The notes under the pieces were generated by a model that did no database searches, had not been told where the DNA came from, and saw nothing but the letters and a program-made list of their open reading frames with translations. This document shows, one piece after another, positions 2,224 through 64,000 of a stretch of 64,000 nt of DNA; the first letter of the stretch is position 1, and each line of letters starts with the position of its first letter. The DNA comes from Phycisphaerales bacterium. Lineage in GTDB: Bacteria; Planctomycetota; Phycisphaerae; Phycisphaerales; UBA1924. The position numbers and the translations under genes are program-made. The stretch lies in the NCBI GenBank assembly GCA_029260315.1, contig JAJDDM010000096.1, positions 1 through 64,000 on the forward strand, given 5' to 3'.

Positions 2224-2436
2224 TCAGTCCGGCTCGATCTCTTCCAGATCGTCTGGGTCGTCCTCGAACGGCAGCTCGAGCAGCCCATCGAGGCGACTCT
2301 CCAGGCGGGCCAGTCGACTCGCGAACTCCTCGATCCGCGAGAGCAGCACCCGCGTCTGCTCGCTCAACTGCTCGACGTCGCGTTCCAGGAACATCTGCTG
2401 CTCCTCGATCTTCGTCTGGTCCGCTCGCTCGCTCAT
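2224..2436 (-). CDS. Small acidic coiled-coil protein (SlyX-like)
   Basis: 70-aa reading from MSERADQTKIEEQQMFLERDVEQLSEQ; heptad-like Leu/Arg pattern and acidic tail. Confidence 0.55.
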   Translation of the reverse strand: MSERADQTKIEEQQMFLERDVEQLSEQTRVLLSRIEEFASRLARLESRLDGLLELPFEDDPDDLEEIEPD

Positions 2437-2462
2437 GGCATGGGCACGATACCCTGCCTGCC

Positions 2463-3158
2463 ATGAGCAAGGACCTGAGTATGGCCCAAAGTCGCCGCCT
2501 TCGGCTCCTCGATTTCGCGGCCCAACTGGGCTTTGTCGCATTTTCCGCCCACGGGCAGGTGCTCGACTGGTCGGCTCGCGTCGCGAGCTTTCAGCAGCCC
2601 GCGGATCCCGACGTAGCCGCCGATTCCGCGCAGCCGGACCTCGACGGAGCGGGCGATCCGGCCCTCGCCGACACCCCGATCGACTTCGGCCTCGCCGGCG
2701 GCGCCTGGCTCACCTTCGGCGCGGGCGTCGCTTCCAACCTCGTCGATGCCGAGGACGCCTACGGCTTCGTCCAGTACAGCAAGTTCATCGCAGACGACTT
2801 CGAGTGGGCCGTCGAGCTCGGCGGGTGGGCCCTCGACGAGCCGGGCGAATACGACCCCGGCGTCAGCGTCAGCTCCATCTTCCGCTGGCACTTCTACCGC
2901 GATGAGACCTGGACAACCTTCGCCGACGCCGGCGTGGGCGTCCTGCTCGCCGGCGACAAGGTCCCCGAGGGCGGCACCAACTTCAACTTCCTCCCCCGCG
3001 TCGGCGTCGGCGCAACCTACCGCCTGGGCGAATCCAACGCCCGCCTCATCGGCGGCGTCCGCTGGCACCATATTTCCAACGCCCGCATCCTGGGCAACGA
3101 CTCCAACCCCGGGCGCGACGGCGCCATGCTCTACTTGGGCGTCTCCATCCCGTTCTGA
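2463..3158 (+). CDS. Acyloxyacyl hydrolase / lipid A 3-O-deacylase (PagL-like) outer-membrane protein
   Basis: C-terminal GGVRWHHISNARILGNDSNPGRDGAMLYLGVSIPF matches the PagL-type His-Ser motif and terminal aromatic beta-barrel residue. Confidence 0.75.
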   Translation: MSKDLSMAQSRRLRLLDFAAQLGFVAFSAHGQVLDWSARVASFQQPADPDVAADSAQPDLDGAGDPALADTPIDFGLAGGAWLTFGAGVASNLVDAEDAYGFVQYSKFIADDFEWAVELGGWALDEPGEYDPGVSVSSIFRWHFYRDETWTTFADAGVGVLLAGDKVPEGGTNFNFLPRVGVGATYRLGESNARLIGGVRWHHISNARILGNDSNPGRDGAMLYLGVSIPF

Positions 3159-58051: not shown

Positions 58052-58123
58052 GCGGGCGTAGCTCAATGGTAGAGCGTCAGCCTTCCAAGCTGAATGTTGA
58101 CGGTTCGAGTCCGTTCGCCCGCT
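58052..58123 (+). tRNA. tRNA-Gly (anticodon TCC)
   Basis: GCGGGCGTAGCTCAATGGTAGAGCGTCAGCCTTCCAAGCTGAATGTTGACGGTTCGAGTCCGTTCGCCCGCT cloverleaf; loop CTTCCAA. Confidence 0.96.
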
Positions 58124-58126
58124 TTC

Positions 58127-58153
58127 GTAAGTGGCTTTATAGAAGCCGCTTAC
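58127..58153. terminator. Hairpin immediately 3' of tRNA-Gly
   Basis: GTAAGTGGCTT-tatag-AAGCCGCTTAC (11-bp stem with one wobble); no clear U-tract. Confidence 0.5.
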
Positions 58154-58169
58154 CCGATTCAACGATTCT

Positions 58170-58237
58170 CTGCACTACATCGACGAGGTCGATTTATAGT
58201 CCTATGTAGTGCAGGATCGACCGTTTATGTAGTGCAG
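58170..58237. repeat. Three copies of CTGCACTACAT (one inverted relative to two direct)
   Basis: 58170-58180 CTGCACTACAT; 58204-58214 and 58227-58237 ATGTAGTGCAG. Confidence 0.9.
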
Positions 58238-58243
58238 AGGCCC

Positions 58244-61039
58244 TCAGAAGCCGTACTTCGCTTTTCGCAGTTGGAACGCTTTCTCTCCGCCCTCCATGAC
58301 GTGCTTTATCTCGTCGCGGATCTGCTCGACATCAATCGCACCATGGCATTTGATCCGGCCGCCCGAATGGTCACCAGCCCGGCGGTAATCGCAACAGATC
58401 ACCAGGTCAGCGTCACCGTTCACAACGATGTTCGCGTTGTGGCTTGAGACGATAATCTGACGCTTGGCTTTGGCGGACCAAATCTGCTCGACGATGTCGA
58501 GGATGACCTGATTGTCAAGGTCGTCTTCTGGTTGATCAATAATGAGCGGCGGCCCATCTTGGTTCAAGAGTACCTTGAGCAACGCTGTCGCCTGCTGTCC
58601 AGCCGAAGCAGAAGCGAATGGGATGTAGTCGTTCTCGCGGCGTTGATATTCGAACACCGGCACATCGGACGGTGAGGTCAGAAGCAACTCCAAGCACGCT
58701 GCGGGAGTCAGTTTTCGCGCGATTCGTTCTAGATCATTTTGCGTTGCACCAGCCTTGACCAACCTAGGACACCCGGGGACAGAGATGTCGTCGTCCTCAT
58801 CAGCTTCAATGGCCGCAAGCGATTCCAGCTCTTCGACAAGCTGCAACCACTCATCAAGTGGATCCTGGGCGTCAGTCACTGCCGAGCACAGTGCCTCATA
58901 TGTCGCCGAACGCACTCGGGTCCCAGAGAGCTCTTTGGTCAGCCGTTCGCTGATCTGCGATGCATCGGAAGCAACTGCCAGAGTAGCACGGATGCGTTCG
59001 GCGGAGAGTTGCGTGAGACGATCGCACTGCCCACTCAGGAGCACCGCTCTTGCTGCGTGGAGCTGTTTCCAACGCACTAGGGCAGACTCGTACTCACTTT
59101 CTGCTTTCTCTCGCCCTTGTAGCTCTTCACGCGTGTCCGCAAGCTGCTGACGAATAGACTTGACTTGCTTCTCCACCGATTCGATCAACGTCAACTTCCC
59201 AGTGTTTGCCGTTGATCGCTCCTTGGCTGCTTCGTATCGCTCGTTGTGTTGAGCAATCGCCGCATTCAGCTTTGCACGCGAGTCAACAAAACCGCCTAGT
59301 TCGTCGCTCCCGTCCTGCAGAATGGCTTCGATTGCCCCCAGCCGTTCCGACACCATTCCCTTGATGCGTTCTGCCGCTGCGTGCATGCGAGCTAACTCGT
59401 CGATGAGAGATTCCGACTCATCGTTCTCCATGCGTATGTCCGGTGGATCCTTCAAACTGCTACCGGCTGCTTGTATTCCAGCTCTCATTGACTCCAGATG
59501 ACGAGTCAACTCCGATACATGCCGCTCAACCGTCAACGTGTTTTCGTGCTGCGAGAGCACTTGAGCATCAGCCTCGGACAAGCCCGTAAGCTGTTTCCGA
59601 AGCTCAACTACTTGAAGTGCGAGCGACGATTCCTCAACTTGGAGTCTCTCAAGTCGAGAGGAGAGGTCTCGTTTCAGTCGCACCTTCTCGTGGGATGCCC
59701 GAATTTCGTCCTTCGTGTCTCGAAGCTCACTTCTCTTGGCCGCCAGTTCCGCTTCGATCGGAGCCTTCACCAAACGGATAAGCTCGTCTGTACGGACGCC
59801 GACCGCACTGAGTTGCTTCTGGCTATACGCCTGGATGGGCAGGAGTTTCTCAACGTCAGCGGCAACGCAATCCTCGAAATTTCCATCCGCGATCTTGAGC
59901 TGTAGTGATTCCGTGGTCGCCTTGCGTTGAACAACGTGCTGAATGCCGTTGACCACAAAGGTCACCGTGGCGATCCCATCGACTTTGGCGAGTGTGTTTT
60001 TGACGAGCCCCACTCTCTTCGCCTGGTAGTCGGGCAATTCGGTTGAGTCGGTCATCGGAGGATGATCACATAACGCCCATCTCAAATACTCCAGCACTGA
60101 CGATTTACCCGTGCCACGCCCTCCAATGAGGCATGAGAACTGAGGGTTGAACTCAATGTCAATCGGCCCAAGAAAGGTGCTGTTTGAGACTTCGAGAGAA
60201 GTGATTGCGATGGCAGGTAGCTGCGGCTCAGTCTGGTGGAGGCGTGTTTGCCGAGCGAGGCATGCTTGTCGAAGAGCCTCGGCGGTTGGTTGAGCCCACT
60301 TCACCCACGTTGAATGCGTGCCGAGATTGCGGCGATCGTCGAATCTGTCATCCGACGTTTGAAACAAGCCCAAAGGCTTGAAGCCCCACTCCGTATCCTT
60401 GCCATCAAGGATGCGTCGTTTGCCATCGTCGAGTTGGGTTTCAGATCCATCGAGGTAACCACCAACACATGGCATCTCTTTGTACTTTGGGGCAAACGCC
60501 TTGCGGAGAATTGACGACTGTCCCTTGCCTACGTTCGGCAGGATGATGTAGCGGCCCCGTGCGTACTCCTGAACGTCGAGGATCTCACACATCTTCGAAA
60601 GCGAGTCAATATGTGTCAGCCGCTGCGTTTCTGCATGGCGATCTTCGCCCGCGTCGTTACTAGCAATGCCAAGTGCGGCCATAACGGCAGGAAACATGTT
60701 GCCAGGAAAATTTGCGTCGAGTAAGAGGAGTGCCTGGCAGGGCACCGAGAGAGTCATCTCCATTCCCGGAAAGACCGTCAGTTGCTCCTGCTCTGGATAA
60801 GGGTCGCCTTCGTCGTCACGCTCTTCCTTGGCCGCAACTCGGATCGCTTCTACAAACACCATGTCGTGGTGGTCGGTAATGGCCACAGCATGGAGACGCT
60901 TCTCTCTACACTTTCGTACGAACCGTTCTGCCCACGCCTTGCGGTCTTCGTCCGATACCGGACGATCGCCTGTCCAGTTGATGTCCCGAGGCGTGTGTAC
61001 TTGAAAGTCGCACCGGAAGAAATGTGCTCCTGCATCCAT
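58244..61039 (-). CDS. TrlF-like protein: N-terminal PHP-type domain plus SMC/AAA-like ATPase
   Basis: FRCDFQVHTPRDINW...AVAITDHHDMVF (PHP); Walker A LIGGRGTGKSSVLEYLRW; SASAGQQATALLKVLL; Walker B PPLIIDQPEDDLDN; long coiled coil. Confidence 0.82.
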   Translation of the reverse strand: MDAGAHFFRCDFQVHTPRDINWTGDRPVSDEDRKAWAERFVRKCREKRLHAVAITDHHDMVFVEAIRVAAKEERDDEGDPYPEQEQLTVFPGMEMTLSVPCQALLLLDANFPGNMFPAVMAALGIASNDAGEDRHAETQRLTHIDSLSKMCEILDVQEYARGRYIILPNVGKGQSSILRKAFAPKYKEMPCVGGYLDGSETQLDDGKRRILDGKDTEWGFKPLGLFQTSDDRFDDRRNLGTHSTWVKWAQPTAEALRQACLARQTRLHQTEPQLPAIAITSLEVSNSTFLGPIDIEFNPQFSCLIGGRGTGKSSVLEYLRWALCDHPPMTDSTELPDYQAKRVGLVKNTLAKVDGIATVTFVVNGIQHVVQRKATTESLQLKIADGNFEDCVAADVEKLLPIQAYSQKQLSAVGVRTDELIRLVKAPIEAELAAKRSELRDTKDEIRASHEKVRLKRDLSSRLERLQVEESSLALQVVELRKQLTGLSEADAQVLSQHENTLTVERHVSELTRHLESMRAGIQAAGSSLKDPPDIRMENDESESLIDELARMHAAAERIKGMVSERLGAIEAILQDGSDELGGFVDSRAKLNAAIAQHNERYEAAKERSTANTGKLTLIESVEKQVKSIRQQLADTREELQGREKAESEYESALVRWKQLHAARAVLLSGQCDRLTQLSAERIRATLAVASDASQISERLTKELSGTRVRSATYEALCSAVTDAQDPLDEWLQLVEELESLAAIEADEDDDISVPGCPRLVKAGATQNDLERIARKLTPAACLELLLTSPSDVPVFEYQRRENDYIPFASASAGQQATALLKVLLNQDGPPLIIDQPEDDLDNQVILDIVEQIWSAKAKRQIIVSSHNANIVVNGDADLVICCDYRRAGDHSGGRIKCHGAIDVEQIRDEIKHVMEGGEKAFQLRKAKYGF

Positions 61040-61360
61040 GCGTCAACTCCAACGAACCGCTCATTCGGCTTCTACTTGCCCAGGAACACTACGAGTTTGC
61101 AGTGCAGGGCACATGACTCGTCACATTGGGGCATTCTATCCGACATTGCGGTACGAGATACCGGAAGGAGCAGGCTTGAATCAGAACCCCGTTTGTCGGA
61201 TAACAGATGCAGCGTCGAGCGTTTGCTCGATGCGGGCGTTACTCCGACCTCAAACGTTCGGGATGACGTTGCTACTTGTGGGTAGCCCCACCCGCTAAAC
61301 CAGGTCTAATCAACTTGGCTAAGGGAACGGTTTTACCAACCGTAACGGGGCTATCCCTTC

Positions 61361-61394
61361 GAGCCGGATGCGATGAGAGTCGCTTGTCCGGTTC
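61361..61394 (+). ncRNA. Group II intron domain V
   Basis: GAGCCGGATGCGATGAGAGTCGCTTGTCCGGTTC: 34 nt, GAGCC/GGTTC closing stem with AGC triad, 2-nt bulge region, GNRA (GAGA) tetraloop on a GCGAU/GUCGC stem. Confidence 0.85.
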
Positions 61395-61397
61395 AAC

Positions 61398-61446
61398 GGA
61401 GGCTCTGGAGAGTAGAACTTCGAAAGAAGAGTAATCCTCCAGTTCG
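61398..61446 (+). ncRNA. Probable group II intron domain VI
   Basis: GGAGG CTCT ... AGAG TAA TCCTCC stem-loop 3 nt after domain V with an unpaired A candidate (TAA) near the 3' arm. Confidence 0.55.
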
Positions 61447-61639
61447 ATCCGATGCCCTTCGTGCGGAAGAGGGGCGACGCTGACAGACCTCGGGTTGCTG
61501 GGTGGTACCAGCACGATGAGGCCGACAGTACTGAATGGGTGCGAATCCCTCGGCGGGGTAAGGTGGCTACGGCCATCGTGCAACGTTCGCTGGCGTGTGG
61601 AGCGTGCTCACGGCGACGTGAGTACCCGCAGTCTGACAA

Positions 61640-62330
61640 CTGCGGCGACCTGCTGACTTGAAAAGGCAGGCGGTGAATAGCTCAAGCATGAGAGGCCCGA
61701 AACAAATAGGGCTTGCCAGTAAGACGATTCGGAGACGGGTAGCCGAACAGCGAAAGGCCGGTGTTGGTGGATAGGGCGAGCTTCTGTGTTCGTAGCCTGG
61801 AAAGCGTGTGCCTCGGCACATGGCGACTGCGGCCTGGCGGAAGCCGGGCACGTACAACACTCGGTCCCTCGGGTAATACCGATTAGCGACGTGAACGAAT
61901 CGTTCTGACAGTGCTGTCTAAAGCGGGAAGGAGTCTCGATGCCGCGATTGGTACGCGGAGCCTTGCACGTCAGCAAGGACATATTCGGAACTCTGGGAGT
62001 GTGGCCTCAGTAGAAGAGCGATGCCACGGGCGGAAGCCCAGGGCAAGTGCTGCGATGGACCTGCAAGGCAGTGGGTTCTCGTTTGCCGCTCGGAGTGATT
62101 ACCGAGCGATTGCGACGACGAAAGGGCTGAGGGGAACGTGCTGCGATGCAGCCATCCCACAAGTAGCAACGTGCGACAGGCAACTGAGCCTGCCGCTCCT
62201 GAGACGACTCTAAGGACGGCCAGTGAGCTGTGGAGCGGAAGCTCCCCATCTGACTGGCGGTGGACTGACGACGGACACGCTTCGTACGCCTACGGCTCGA
62301 AGCGTGCACTCTTCTTTGCTGCGACCGCTA
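61640..62330 (+). ncRNA. Group II intron domain I (to II/III)-like sequence, downstream of domain V
   Basis: CCTGC-TGACTTGAAAA-GGCAGG-CGGTGAATAGCTCAAGCATGAGAGG...CTTGCCAGTAAG...GAACAGCGAAAGGCCGGTG resembles the 5' part of bacterial group II introns of the EcI5/class-B type (recalled); many stable hairpins; no convincing ORF. Confidence 0.6.
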
Positions 62331-62738
62331 CGCCAATACACCTTGGCGGGCGGTCTTATTGAATACAGCAGGCCGCCCATTTGCGGCGGGTGCTGTTAGC
62401 AAAGACGAGGTTGTGTCTCGAAGGATTCGACGACACAGACTCAGTCGTTTCGGAAGCGACCACGGAAGGTCGCTCGGTCAGTCGGAATGTGTGCGTGCGT
62501 GGGAACACGTTCTGCCGTGCCGTCACGTTGACGACACGGCAAGAGGTTCATCACGCATCGTGGAAAGGAGGTTCGGTCACAAGCGAAACTCCCTCGCACG
62601 CACCATTCTGGCGAGACCGTTGACGGACGACAGGTCCATGTACGTCTCAGGGTTTGGCTTTCGCAGATTGAGCCTTATCAATCTGCATCCTCGTGGTCCA
62701 TCCAAACGGTTGGACCAGGAGGATTCACGGGGAGGGGT

Positions 62739-63440
62739 ATGGAACCGAAGGCAAGCCGAGGAAACCAGTGGCTGGTGCAGTCACGTGCCGCACTCGTGCG
62801 GTATGTGGCAGCCAACCTGCTCACGCATGGCTACCGGTGGTACGTCACCGGCCAGATTCCAGAGCACAAAGACCCGGCTCTGACTGATGATGCGATTCTT
62901 GACCGCTATGGCCTTCGCATCACAAAGTGGGAGCGAGCCCGCAAGAAACGGGCGGGGTGGGCGAGTGTGCGATACCTCCGAGTAGACCAGTACTTCCTGC
63001 TCATTGCCACCGACGGTCCGCACCCATTCAGAACAGCAGAACAAGCGGTCATCAAAGATGCACGCCGAACCCCGCTCATCGTGGACGGGTACTCGCTCAG
63101 CATCCGCAAGCAAATGCTCGGGACTGGTCGTGGTGTTTGGCGTCCAAGTGTTCGCATCGAACGCAGCACCTACATGCAGCTACGAGCGTACTTTCTTGAA
63201 CACGCCGTGCATCGATCGGAGGATTGGCTGCGACGGGAGCTTCACAACGTCCCGTTCGAGCCATACCAACCAGTCGTCCGCCAACTCCACGCCCTTCTGC
63301 AAGCTCTCAACAAGGCCAGAAAGCGGGCCGGTTACACCGTGATTGGGTACGACGTATTCCGATACCGCATGAGGCCGATCAGGGTCTTTGTTGATGACAC
63401 GGATGTCGTCGTCAAAGCCCCGCACAAGGTGCCACGATGA
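62739..63440 (+). CDS. Uncharacterised basic protein downstream of the structured RNA
   Basis: Strong SD-like GGGGAGGGG 6 nt upstream of ATG; 233-aa ORF VRYLRVDQYFLLIATDG...MQLRAYFLEHAVHRSEDWLRRELHNVPFEPYQPVVRQLHALLQALNKARKRAGY; no RT, maturase or HNH motifs seen. Confidence 0.75.
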   Translation: MEPKASRGNQWLVQSRAALVRYVAANLLTHGYRWYVTGQIPEHKDPALTDDAILDRYGLRITKWERARKKRAGWASVRYLRVDQYFLLIATDGPHPFRTAEQAVIKDARRTPLIVDGYSLSIRKQMLGTGRGVWRPSVRIERSTYMQLRAYFLEHAVHRSEDWLRRELHNVPFEPYQPVVRQLHALLQALNKARKRAGYTVIGYDVFRYRMRPIRVFVDDTDVVVKAPHKVPR

Positions 63441-63574
63441 GTGCGTTCGACCATCTCTTTCGCAGGCACATCGACCGCATGGCTAAACGTCGCGTAGCCG
63501 CACCATCTCTTGTGGCTTGGTGCTGGCGACTCGTGTTGGCCGGATGTCTCGCACGCTTGTTCTGGCCAGCATGA
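63437..63574 (+). CDS. 45-aa small hydrophobic protein, ATGA-coupled to the preceding ORF
   Basis: MSAFDHLFRRHIDRMAKRRVAAPSLVAWCWRLVLAGCLARLFWPA; start overlaps the upstream stop; below the ORF-track cutoff. Confidence 0.55.
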   Translation: MSAFDHLFRRHIDRMAKRRVAAPSLVAWCWRLVLAGCLARLFWPA

Positions 63575-63589
63575 CCGGGTTCGTCTCGT

Positions 63590-64000
63590 TCAGCTCATGG
63601 CCTGCTCTGTGAACTTGTCGTAGTCATTGGCGACCGCAAAGCCGATGTCGGTATCGAGTGCCTTGAAGTGTTCTCGGCCACAGTCAATCTTCGCCTTCTC
63701 CCTGGCACGAAGGTCACCACTGAACAGGCTTCCCTTCGTCTCCACGACGAAGTAGAGCCGCTCCTGGCCGTCAATGTCGATGACAACCGCCCAGTCTGGG
63801 TTGTACGTGCCGAGGGGCGTCTCGATCTTGAACCATGCCGGGAGCTTCGCGTACACCTTCACCTCATCGGCTCGCTCGAAGGCACCTGCAAACGCCTCCT
63901 CAACGTCGGAGTCGTAGACGACGTGCTCATAGACGGACTTGTCACTCTTGAGCATGTTCTGGTTGAGGTAGCCCCGTAGCTCCTCGTTCTGGAAGAGCTC
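63590..64000 (-). CDS. Type III restriction endonuclease (Res) subunit, C-terminal part (runs off window)
   Basis: NEELRGYLNQNMLKSDKSVYEHVVYDSDVEEAFAGAFERADEVKVYAKLPAWFKIETPLGTYNPDWAVVIDIDGQERLYFVVETKGSLFSGDLRAREKAKIDCGREHFKAL: PD-(D/E)XK-type end of type III Res proteins. Confidence 0.82.
   Translation of the reverse strand, partial: ELFQNEELRGYLNQNMLKSDKSVYEHVVYDSDVEEAFAGAFERADEVKVYAKLPAWFKIETPLGTYNPDWAVVIDIDGQERLYFVVETKGSLFSGDLRAREKAKIDCGREHFKALDTDIGFAVANDYDKFTEQAMS

Follow-up and report, generated by a model that had tools for sequence, protein, structure and literature searches.

The window analyzed here, a 64,000-nucleotide stretch at the start of contig JAJDDM010000096.1 of a Phycisphaerales bacterium, carries toward its end a structured RNA and, downstream on the same strand, the gene acpG (Table 1). 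The sequence is chromosomal up to a tRNA gene, past which codon composition and gene content change. The island beyond the tRNA (58124-64000, with the contig running to 70292) holds a TrlF-family ATPase gene (58244-61039, minus strand), the RNA-acpG module, a type III restriction endonuclease gene (63590-66598, minus strand), and further genes; it is possibly a defense island.

Table 1. Coordinates of the RNA domains and genes in the window
Feature	Coordinates	Strand	Basis
tRNA gene at chromosome/island border	58052-58123	+	RF00005, 75.1 bits
P1-like stem	61300-61318	+	Consensus stem with compensatory changes across 39 relatives; located where P1 lies in circularly permuted (CP) group II RNAs (PMC8637638)
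P2-like hairpin, CGGUU-UUACC-AACCG	61328-61342	+	Both-side pair changes in alignment A9; same site as P2, a stem found only in CP group II RNAs
Domain 5 (D5), 34 nt, AGC triad, GAGA loop	61361-61394	+	RF00029 match
Domain 6 (D6), bulged branch-point A at 61447, terminus UUCGAUCCGAU	61395-61453	+	RF00029 match; covarying stem
Linker GCCCUUCGUGCGGAAGAG, the predicted 18-nt excised RNA circle	61454-61471	+	Invariant flanking motifs in 82 elements
Domains 1 to 3 (D1-D3) and start of D4, opening with 5' splice site GGGCGAC	61472-62135	+	69-sequence alignment
EBS1 loop GUGUUC	61786-61791	+	Antiparallel pairing with circle positions -1 to -6
acpG, 233 aa, probable catalytically dead RT/maturase-like fold	62739-63440	+	hhalign; fold and profile matches to RTs

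The RNA was located in Rfam by a match to the group II D5/D6 model RF00029 (61359-61453, plus strand; 46.3 bits, above the gathering score of 40; E = 6e-6 over the window). No second RF00029 match was found in the 4.18-Mb genome, making this the sole D5/D6 that the model recognizes there. The first-pass annotation, made from sequence alone, had thus placed the 34-nt domain V exactly and was right that none follows downstream; the domain VI that it proposed was confirmed by the same match, with its end at 61453 rather than ~61446. It had also named Rfam matches to D1-D4 as a check; D5/D6 was recognized, but no D1-D4 model in Rfam 15 matched the downstream RNA. BLASTN and alignment nonetheless revealed D1-D3 downstream of D5/D6 on the same strand, as had been suggested for domain I, although the start lies at the GGGCGAC of 61472 and not at ~61640. 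The order of domains on the one strand is D5-D6-D1-D2-D3(-D4), with D4 partly resolved, and P1 and P2 stems that covary lie 5' of D5. Alignment of the fetched loci of relatives delimits the conserved RNA unit to ~61290 to ~62135. The order D1 to D6 with an RT open reading frame (ORF) in D4, by which an ordinary mobile group II intron is recognized, is absent from this RNA.

Covariation and splice sites across relatives

When positions 61290-62740 were used as a BLASTN query against 397 genomes of the same class, matches were obtained in 38, many of them with two collinear blocks, D5/D6 followed by part of D1. RNAalifold analysis of 39 relatives gave 39 pairs for P1, P2, D5, and D6, 32 of which carry compensatory changes; the D5 pairs are retained in nearly all of these sequences, most with double changes. 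For D1-D3, 69 sequences yielded 154 pairs, with 132 changed on both sides and 94.5% of cells paired, whereas column-shuffled D1-D3 alignments folded to almost no pairs. Since the structure covaries and the shuffled nulls do not reproduce it, neither a chance arrangement nor a pair of relics can account for the unit. When the entire RNA was used to search plasmid DNA, no match was obtained.

The 3' splice site falls after 61453 and the 5' splice site before the GGGCG at 61472, a gap of 18 nt. The motif GGGCGA(C/T) is conserved in relatives after D6 and a short linker, and the strict pattern UUC(U/G)A(U/C)CCNAU, linker, GGGCGA fits 82 elements; linkers range from 8 to 46 nt (median, 21) among 69 distinct elements. 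Counting back from the 3' splice site, the branch-point A is the 7th nucleotide, a spacing shared with group II introns, and it occupies an invariant column of alignment A9. The circle predicted from these sites replaces the much longer one (~61447-61639) drawn at first pass. A GUGCG at ~61539 was also considered as the 5' splice site and dropped, as it is unconserved, whereas the GGGCG at 61472 is conserved.

To locate EBS1, each alignment column was scored for how well it could pair with the six bases that end the linker (IBS1; GAAGAG in the window), with no location assumed. A single clear place emerged, with 79.5% pairing versus 67.3 ± 1.3% for shuffled partners. At each of the three variable positions, changes track those of the antiparallel partner that was expected (z = 4.3, 5.1, and 4.6), and the remaining three are nearly fixed (GAA/UUC). 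This covariation fixes the position of the 5' splice site. The EBS1-IBS1 of the window copy forms four of six pairs, which is inside the family range, as 24 of the 69 elements form four or fewer; judged by its two mismatches, the window copy may be weak. No clear alignment column emerged for the delta-delta' pairing.

In most relatives, the part of D6 corresponding to window positions 61411-61439 forms an internal loop that is nearly symmetric, both of its strands carrying AGUAAUC; the window D6 is altered on the 5' side of this loop (AGUAGAAC). The bacterium's own genome carries a second, divergent CP group II RNA with acpG on another contig (locus L076, ~690-2850, contig C41). Ordinary group II introns are apparently inserted at the tip of the CP group II D5 in three genomes (L141, ~2341-3050; L106, ~546-640; L146, ~9-140). 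In L141, the 5' half of D5 (GAGCGCGGTACGTCGAGAGG) is followed by GTGCG..CCCTAC and then by CGTTTGCTGCGCTC, and splicing of the insert would restore a D5 of exactly 34 nt; this would be a naturally occurring intron within a ribozyme. The 5' half of D5 was not seen beside the inserted intron in L106 and L146.

The neighboring gene acpG

The first-pass annotation had reported that the region lacks an RT/maturase ORF. The region has no ORF with an RT active site; the next ORF downstream of the RNA, however, encodes a homolog of AcpG that itself appears RT-derived. Pfam and NCBIfam searches with the window AcpG gave no match, RT families included. In hhalign, the planctomycete AcpG profile matched the proteobacterial (pPNAP05-type) AcpG family with a probability of 99.3% (E = 3.6e-20); profile comparison likewise connected the proteobacterial family to the Thermus TTHC007 family (98%, E = 2.9e-13) and the planctomycete proteins to TTHC007 (90%, E = 1.6e-6), the pTT8 gene having been identified as TTHC007 from its length and place rather than from its locus tag. 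The window AcpG thus belongs to the AcpG/TTHC007 family by profile comparison, a kinship visible to profiles and insignificant in BLASTP of the window protein against TTHC007.

By tblastn, relatives of the window AcpG were found on plasmids of a planctomycete, of cyanobacteria, and, weakly, of Proteobacteria; RF00029 D5/D6 lies upstream of acpG in the planctomycete copy and in one cyanobacterial copy. The Sulfuriferula AcpG matches the protein of pPNAP05, the plasmid used in the 2021 study of the class discussed below. A genome-wide scan yielded 71 acpG loci, mainly in Planctomycetota, with a few in MAGs labeled Acidobacteriota, Verrucomicrobia, and others. Of the 47 loci with enough sequence, 43 carry the RNA core on the acpG strand, upstream of the gene, versus 0 of 41 control stretches. 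A search of a phage collection for AcpG and a scan of one set of viral contigs with a proteobacterial AcpG found no match or relative.

The AlphaFold model of the window AcpG (pLDDT, 91.7) had the retron Ec86 RT as its best PDB match in Foldseek (probability, 0.99); the next matches include other retron, group II-like, and Abi RTs as well as palm-fold cyclases, and RdRPs are frequent in the viral list. For an AcpG model from another locus (pLDDT, 94.4), the best match among 350,542 chains was an RT in complex with a group II intron (8h2h_D; probability, 0.85). Foldseek E values were about 3e-3, with TM-scores of 0.31 to 0.38. Against 41 group II RTs, hhalign gave probabilities of 54 to 65% (E = 1.3e-4 to 6e-5), which fell to 12 to 15% once retron and other RTs were mixed in; reversed or shuffled templates reached at most 0.6% and unrelated neighbor families at most 1.9%. 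The alignment with group II RTs is colinear through motif C, RT-7, and the thumb, with YLR-(H/F/Y)(G/E)RFFVLLAT over IRYADDFVV, AGYSIS over FLGFHV, and the thumb helices next. The YxDD motif is absent, its position being occupied by (H/F/Y)(G/E)R(F) in 46 AcpG sequences and by V-D-Q-Y in the window, such that both aspartates are lost.

Each of these lines is weak alone; combined, they make it probable that AcpG is a catalytically dead RT/maturase. RT ancestry is strongly suggested by the predicted fold and the profile alignments, and we infer that the protein acts as a maturase. Compared with group II intron maturases and retron RTs, AcpG is alike in its predicted fold and in its colinear motif C, RT-7, and thumb but differs in lacking YADD, in its shorter N-terminal (fingers) side, and in being encoded outside the ribozyme. 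As a remnant of an intron-encoded maturase, it would have retained the palm and thumb for binding the ribozyme, while its gene would have moved outside the RNA and lost the polymerase residues.

Assignment to the circularly permuted group II class

As described by Roth et al. (2021; PMC8637638), CP group II ribozymes have the order D5-D6-linker-D1-D4, GGGCG/NU splice motifs, P1/P2 stems, linkers of 15 to 86 nt, and AcpG as a frequent neighbor protein. The phyla that appear in their text are Deinococcus-Thermus, Firmicutes, and Proteobacteria, with Planctomycetes and cyanobacteria going unmentioned; our literature search found no other paper on the class. The window RNA resembles these RNAs (T-large RNA included) in its domain order, bulged A, GGGCG 5' splice site, P1/P2, short linker (its 18 nt falling in the 15- to 86-nt range, with a 3' splice site ending in AU), AcpG neighbor, plasmid residence, and lack of an ORF within the RNA. 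Because of the GGGCG site, the bulged branch A, the P1/P2-like stems, the short linker, and the neighboring acpG, we assign it, with a probability of roughly 85%, to the CP group II ribozymes, as part of a so far undescribed planctomycete/cyanobacterial branch in which the RNA and acpG make up a two-gene module, here on a presumably plasmid-derived island. The first-pass proposal, a Breaker-laboratory type of circularly permuted group II RNA with no RT gene inside it, is upheld by the domain order, the reversed GGGCG site, the EBS1-IBS1 covariation, the P1/P2 stems, and the neighboring acpG, each of which is conserved in dozens of relatives. Here, 69 distinct relatives were gathered.

The new branch has distinguishing features. 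Planctomycete D5 has a canonical G-C closing pair and a GAGA-like loop (GAGCC..GGUUC), in contrast to AAGC..GCUA in the 2021 RNAs; the 3' splice site reads UUC(U/G)AUCCNAU rather than UUCGACCCAAU; and the RNA lies upstream of acpG on the same strand, whereas the two are divergent in the 2021 RNAs. In proteobacterial RNAs (E. coli plasmid, pMtBL, Azotobacter, Burkholderia, and Sulfuriferula), D5 has AAGC..GCUA (UAGC..GCUG in Burkholderia), the 3' splice site is UUCGAC(C/U)CAAU, and the RNA is mostly on the strand opposite acpG. Ordinary bacterial group II introns share homologous D5, D6, D1, EBS1-IBS1, and the branch-point A with the window RNA, which differs from them in being permuted, with splice sites reversed and no IEP in D4. 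While AcpG/TTHC007 proteins were described in 2021 without known homology, they are tied here to an RT fold in which the catalytic aspartates are replaced.

The splicing chemistry of the window copy is predicted from that of its relatives, for which Roth et al. demonstrated circle formation in vitro in five species. The branch-point A of D6 would attack the phosphate preceding GGGCG, the site being selected by pairing of IBS1 at the linker end with EBS1. The freed 3' end of the linker would then attack the 3' splice site, yielding an 18-nt RNA circle and a 2'-5' branched RNA that carries D5-D6 and D1-D4.

Two rival readings concern the window copy itself. Bacteria commonly carry group II intron fragments, which favors the alternative raised at first pass, namely, two adjacent and functionless fragments of ordinary group II introns, as does the recognition of D5/D6 alone by Rfam. 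This reading is refuted, with a residual likelihood that is negligible, by the retention of the whole permuted unit, the splice-site spacing, the EBS1-IBS1 covariation, and acpG in 69 distinct relatives, and no ordinary D5 exists elsewhere in the genome. It is unlikely, but not strikingly so, that the RNA is real and the window copy a decaying relic on a genomic island: its EBS1-IBS1 makes four of six pairs, its D6 motif GUAAUC is changed on the 5' side, and the island adjoins a tRNA and is truncated by the contig end. Against decay, every conserved block and an intact 233-aa acpG are present, and an EBS1-IBS1 pairing this short is seen in 24 of the 69 elements.

Plasmid context and possible function

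Among 144 neighbor ORFs of relatives, ParA (16), integrases (11), RPA replication initiators (8), and ParB (5) dominate. These par, rep, and integrase neighbors indicate that plasmids and integrated plasmids repeatedly carry the module, and we infer a plasmid origin for the window island. The gene order T4CP gene, CP RNA, acpG occurs on G. diazotrophicus pGDIPal5I, P. aromaticivorans pBN5, and P. terrae pPT70, the first two of which have annotated VirB-type T4SS genes. Searches of these three plasmids for the relaxase families TrwC, Relaxase, MobA_MobL, TraI_2, Replic_Relax, and Mob_Pre gave no match; TrwC was detected in two other AcpG plasmids, which served as the control. The planctomycete and the Calothrix AcpG plasmids were typed MOBF.

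A group of ten E. coli plasmids, near-identical and about 30 kb in size (NZ_CP045715.1 and nine others), has T4SS genes and no recognized relaxase; in these plasmids, the CP group II RNA and acpG lie near a VirB11-type ATPase gene.

Lariat RNPs cut DNA, and the CP group II ribozyme with its pseudo-maturase AcpG could conceivably stand in, as an RNA-based nickase, for the protein relaxase of conjugative and mobilizable plasmids: the branched RNP, held by AcpG, would nick plasmid DNA via partial reverse splicing and so start conjugative transfer, and the planctomycete islands would be integrated relatives. We consider this role doubtful. It draws on the T4CP gene-CP RNA-acpG order of the three plasmids that gave no relaxase match and on mobility typing, in which 27 of 28 proteobacterial and 20 of 20 Thermus AcpG plasmids were non-mobilizable versus 110 of 639 TrfA (17%) and 401 of 1,030 ParA (39%) control plasmids, although the controls are not matched for size and the AcpG counts include the ten near-identical E. 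coli plasmids. Against it, the K2D and Calothrix plasmids hold both the module and a TrwC relaxase, 4-kb plasmids bear the module without a T4SS, and a search of five plasmids for the ligated circle junction as a target site did no better than shuffled sequence. That the CP RNA is instead a plasmid replication origin or primer appears highly improbable. The par and rep genes are frequent neighbors and the RNA is close to the pPNAP05 origin (PMC8637638), but most plasmids examined have their own Rep genes; OriR of pMtBL maps to 1918-2759 (PMC10033558), whereas the CP RNA core starts near 3126; and the pTT8 RNA is dispensable for replication according to Aoki and Itoh, as cited in PMC8637638. 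The CP RNA was accordingly rejected as a plasmid replicon, given the ordinary Rep genes and a pMtBL origin that lies elsewhere.

The RNA-acpG module bears on several questions. The spliceosome kept an inactive RT, Prp8, and AcpG, if it is a dead RT kept as an RNA-binding partner, would parallel it. An origin of AcpG from a dead maturase would also fill a gap left in 2021, that of an intron-like ribozyme without a maturase. The planctomycete branch carries the CP group II class into new phyla and ties it tightly to one protein, and the evidence on AcpG and the relaxase-free plasmids lifts the finding above one more class member. With relaxase-free plasmids of the conjugative type, the role of CP group II RNAs becomes experimentally approachable.
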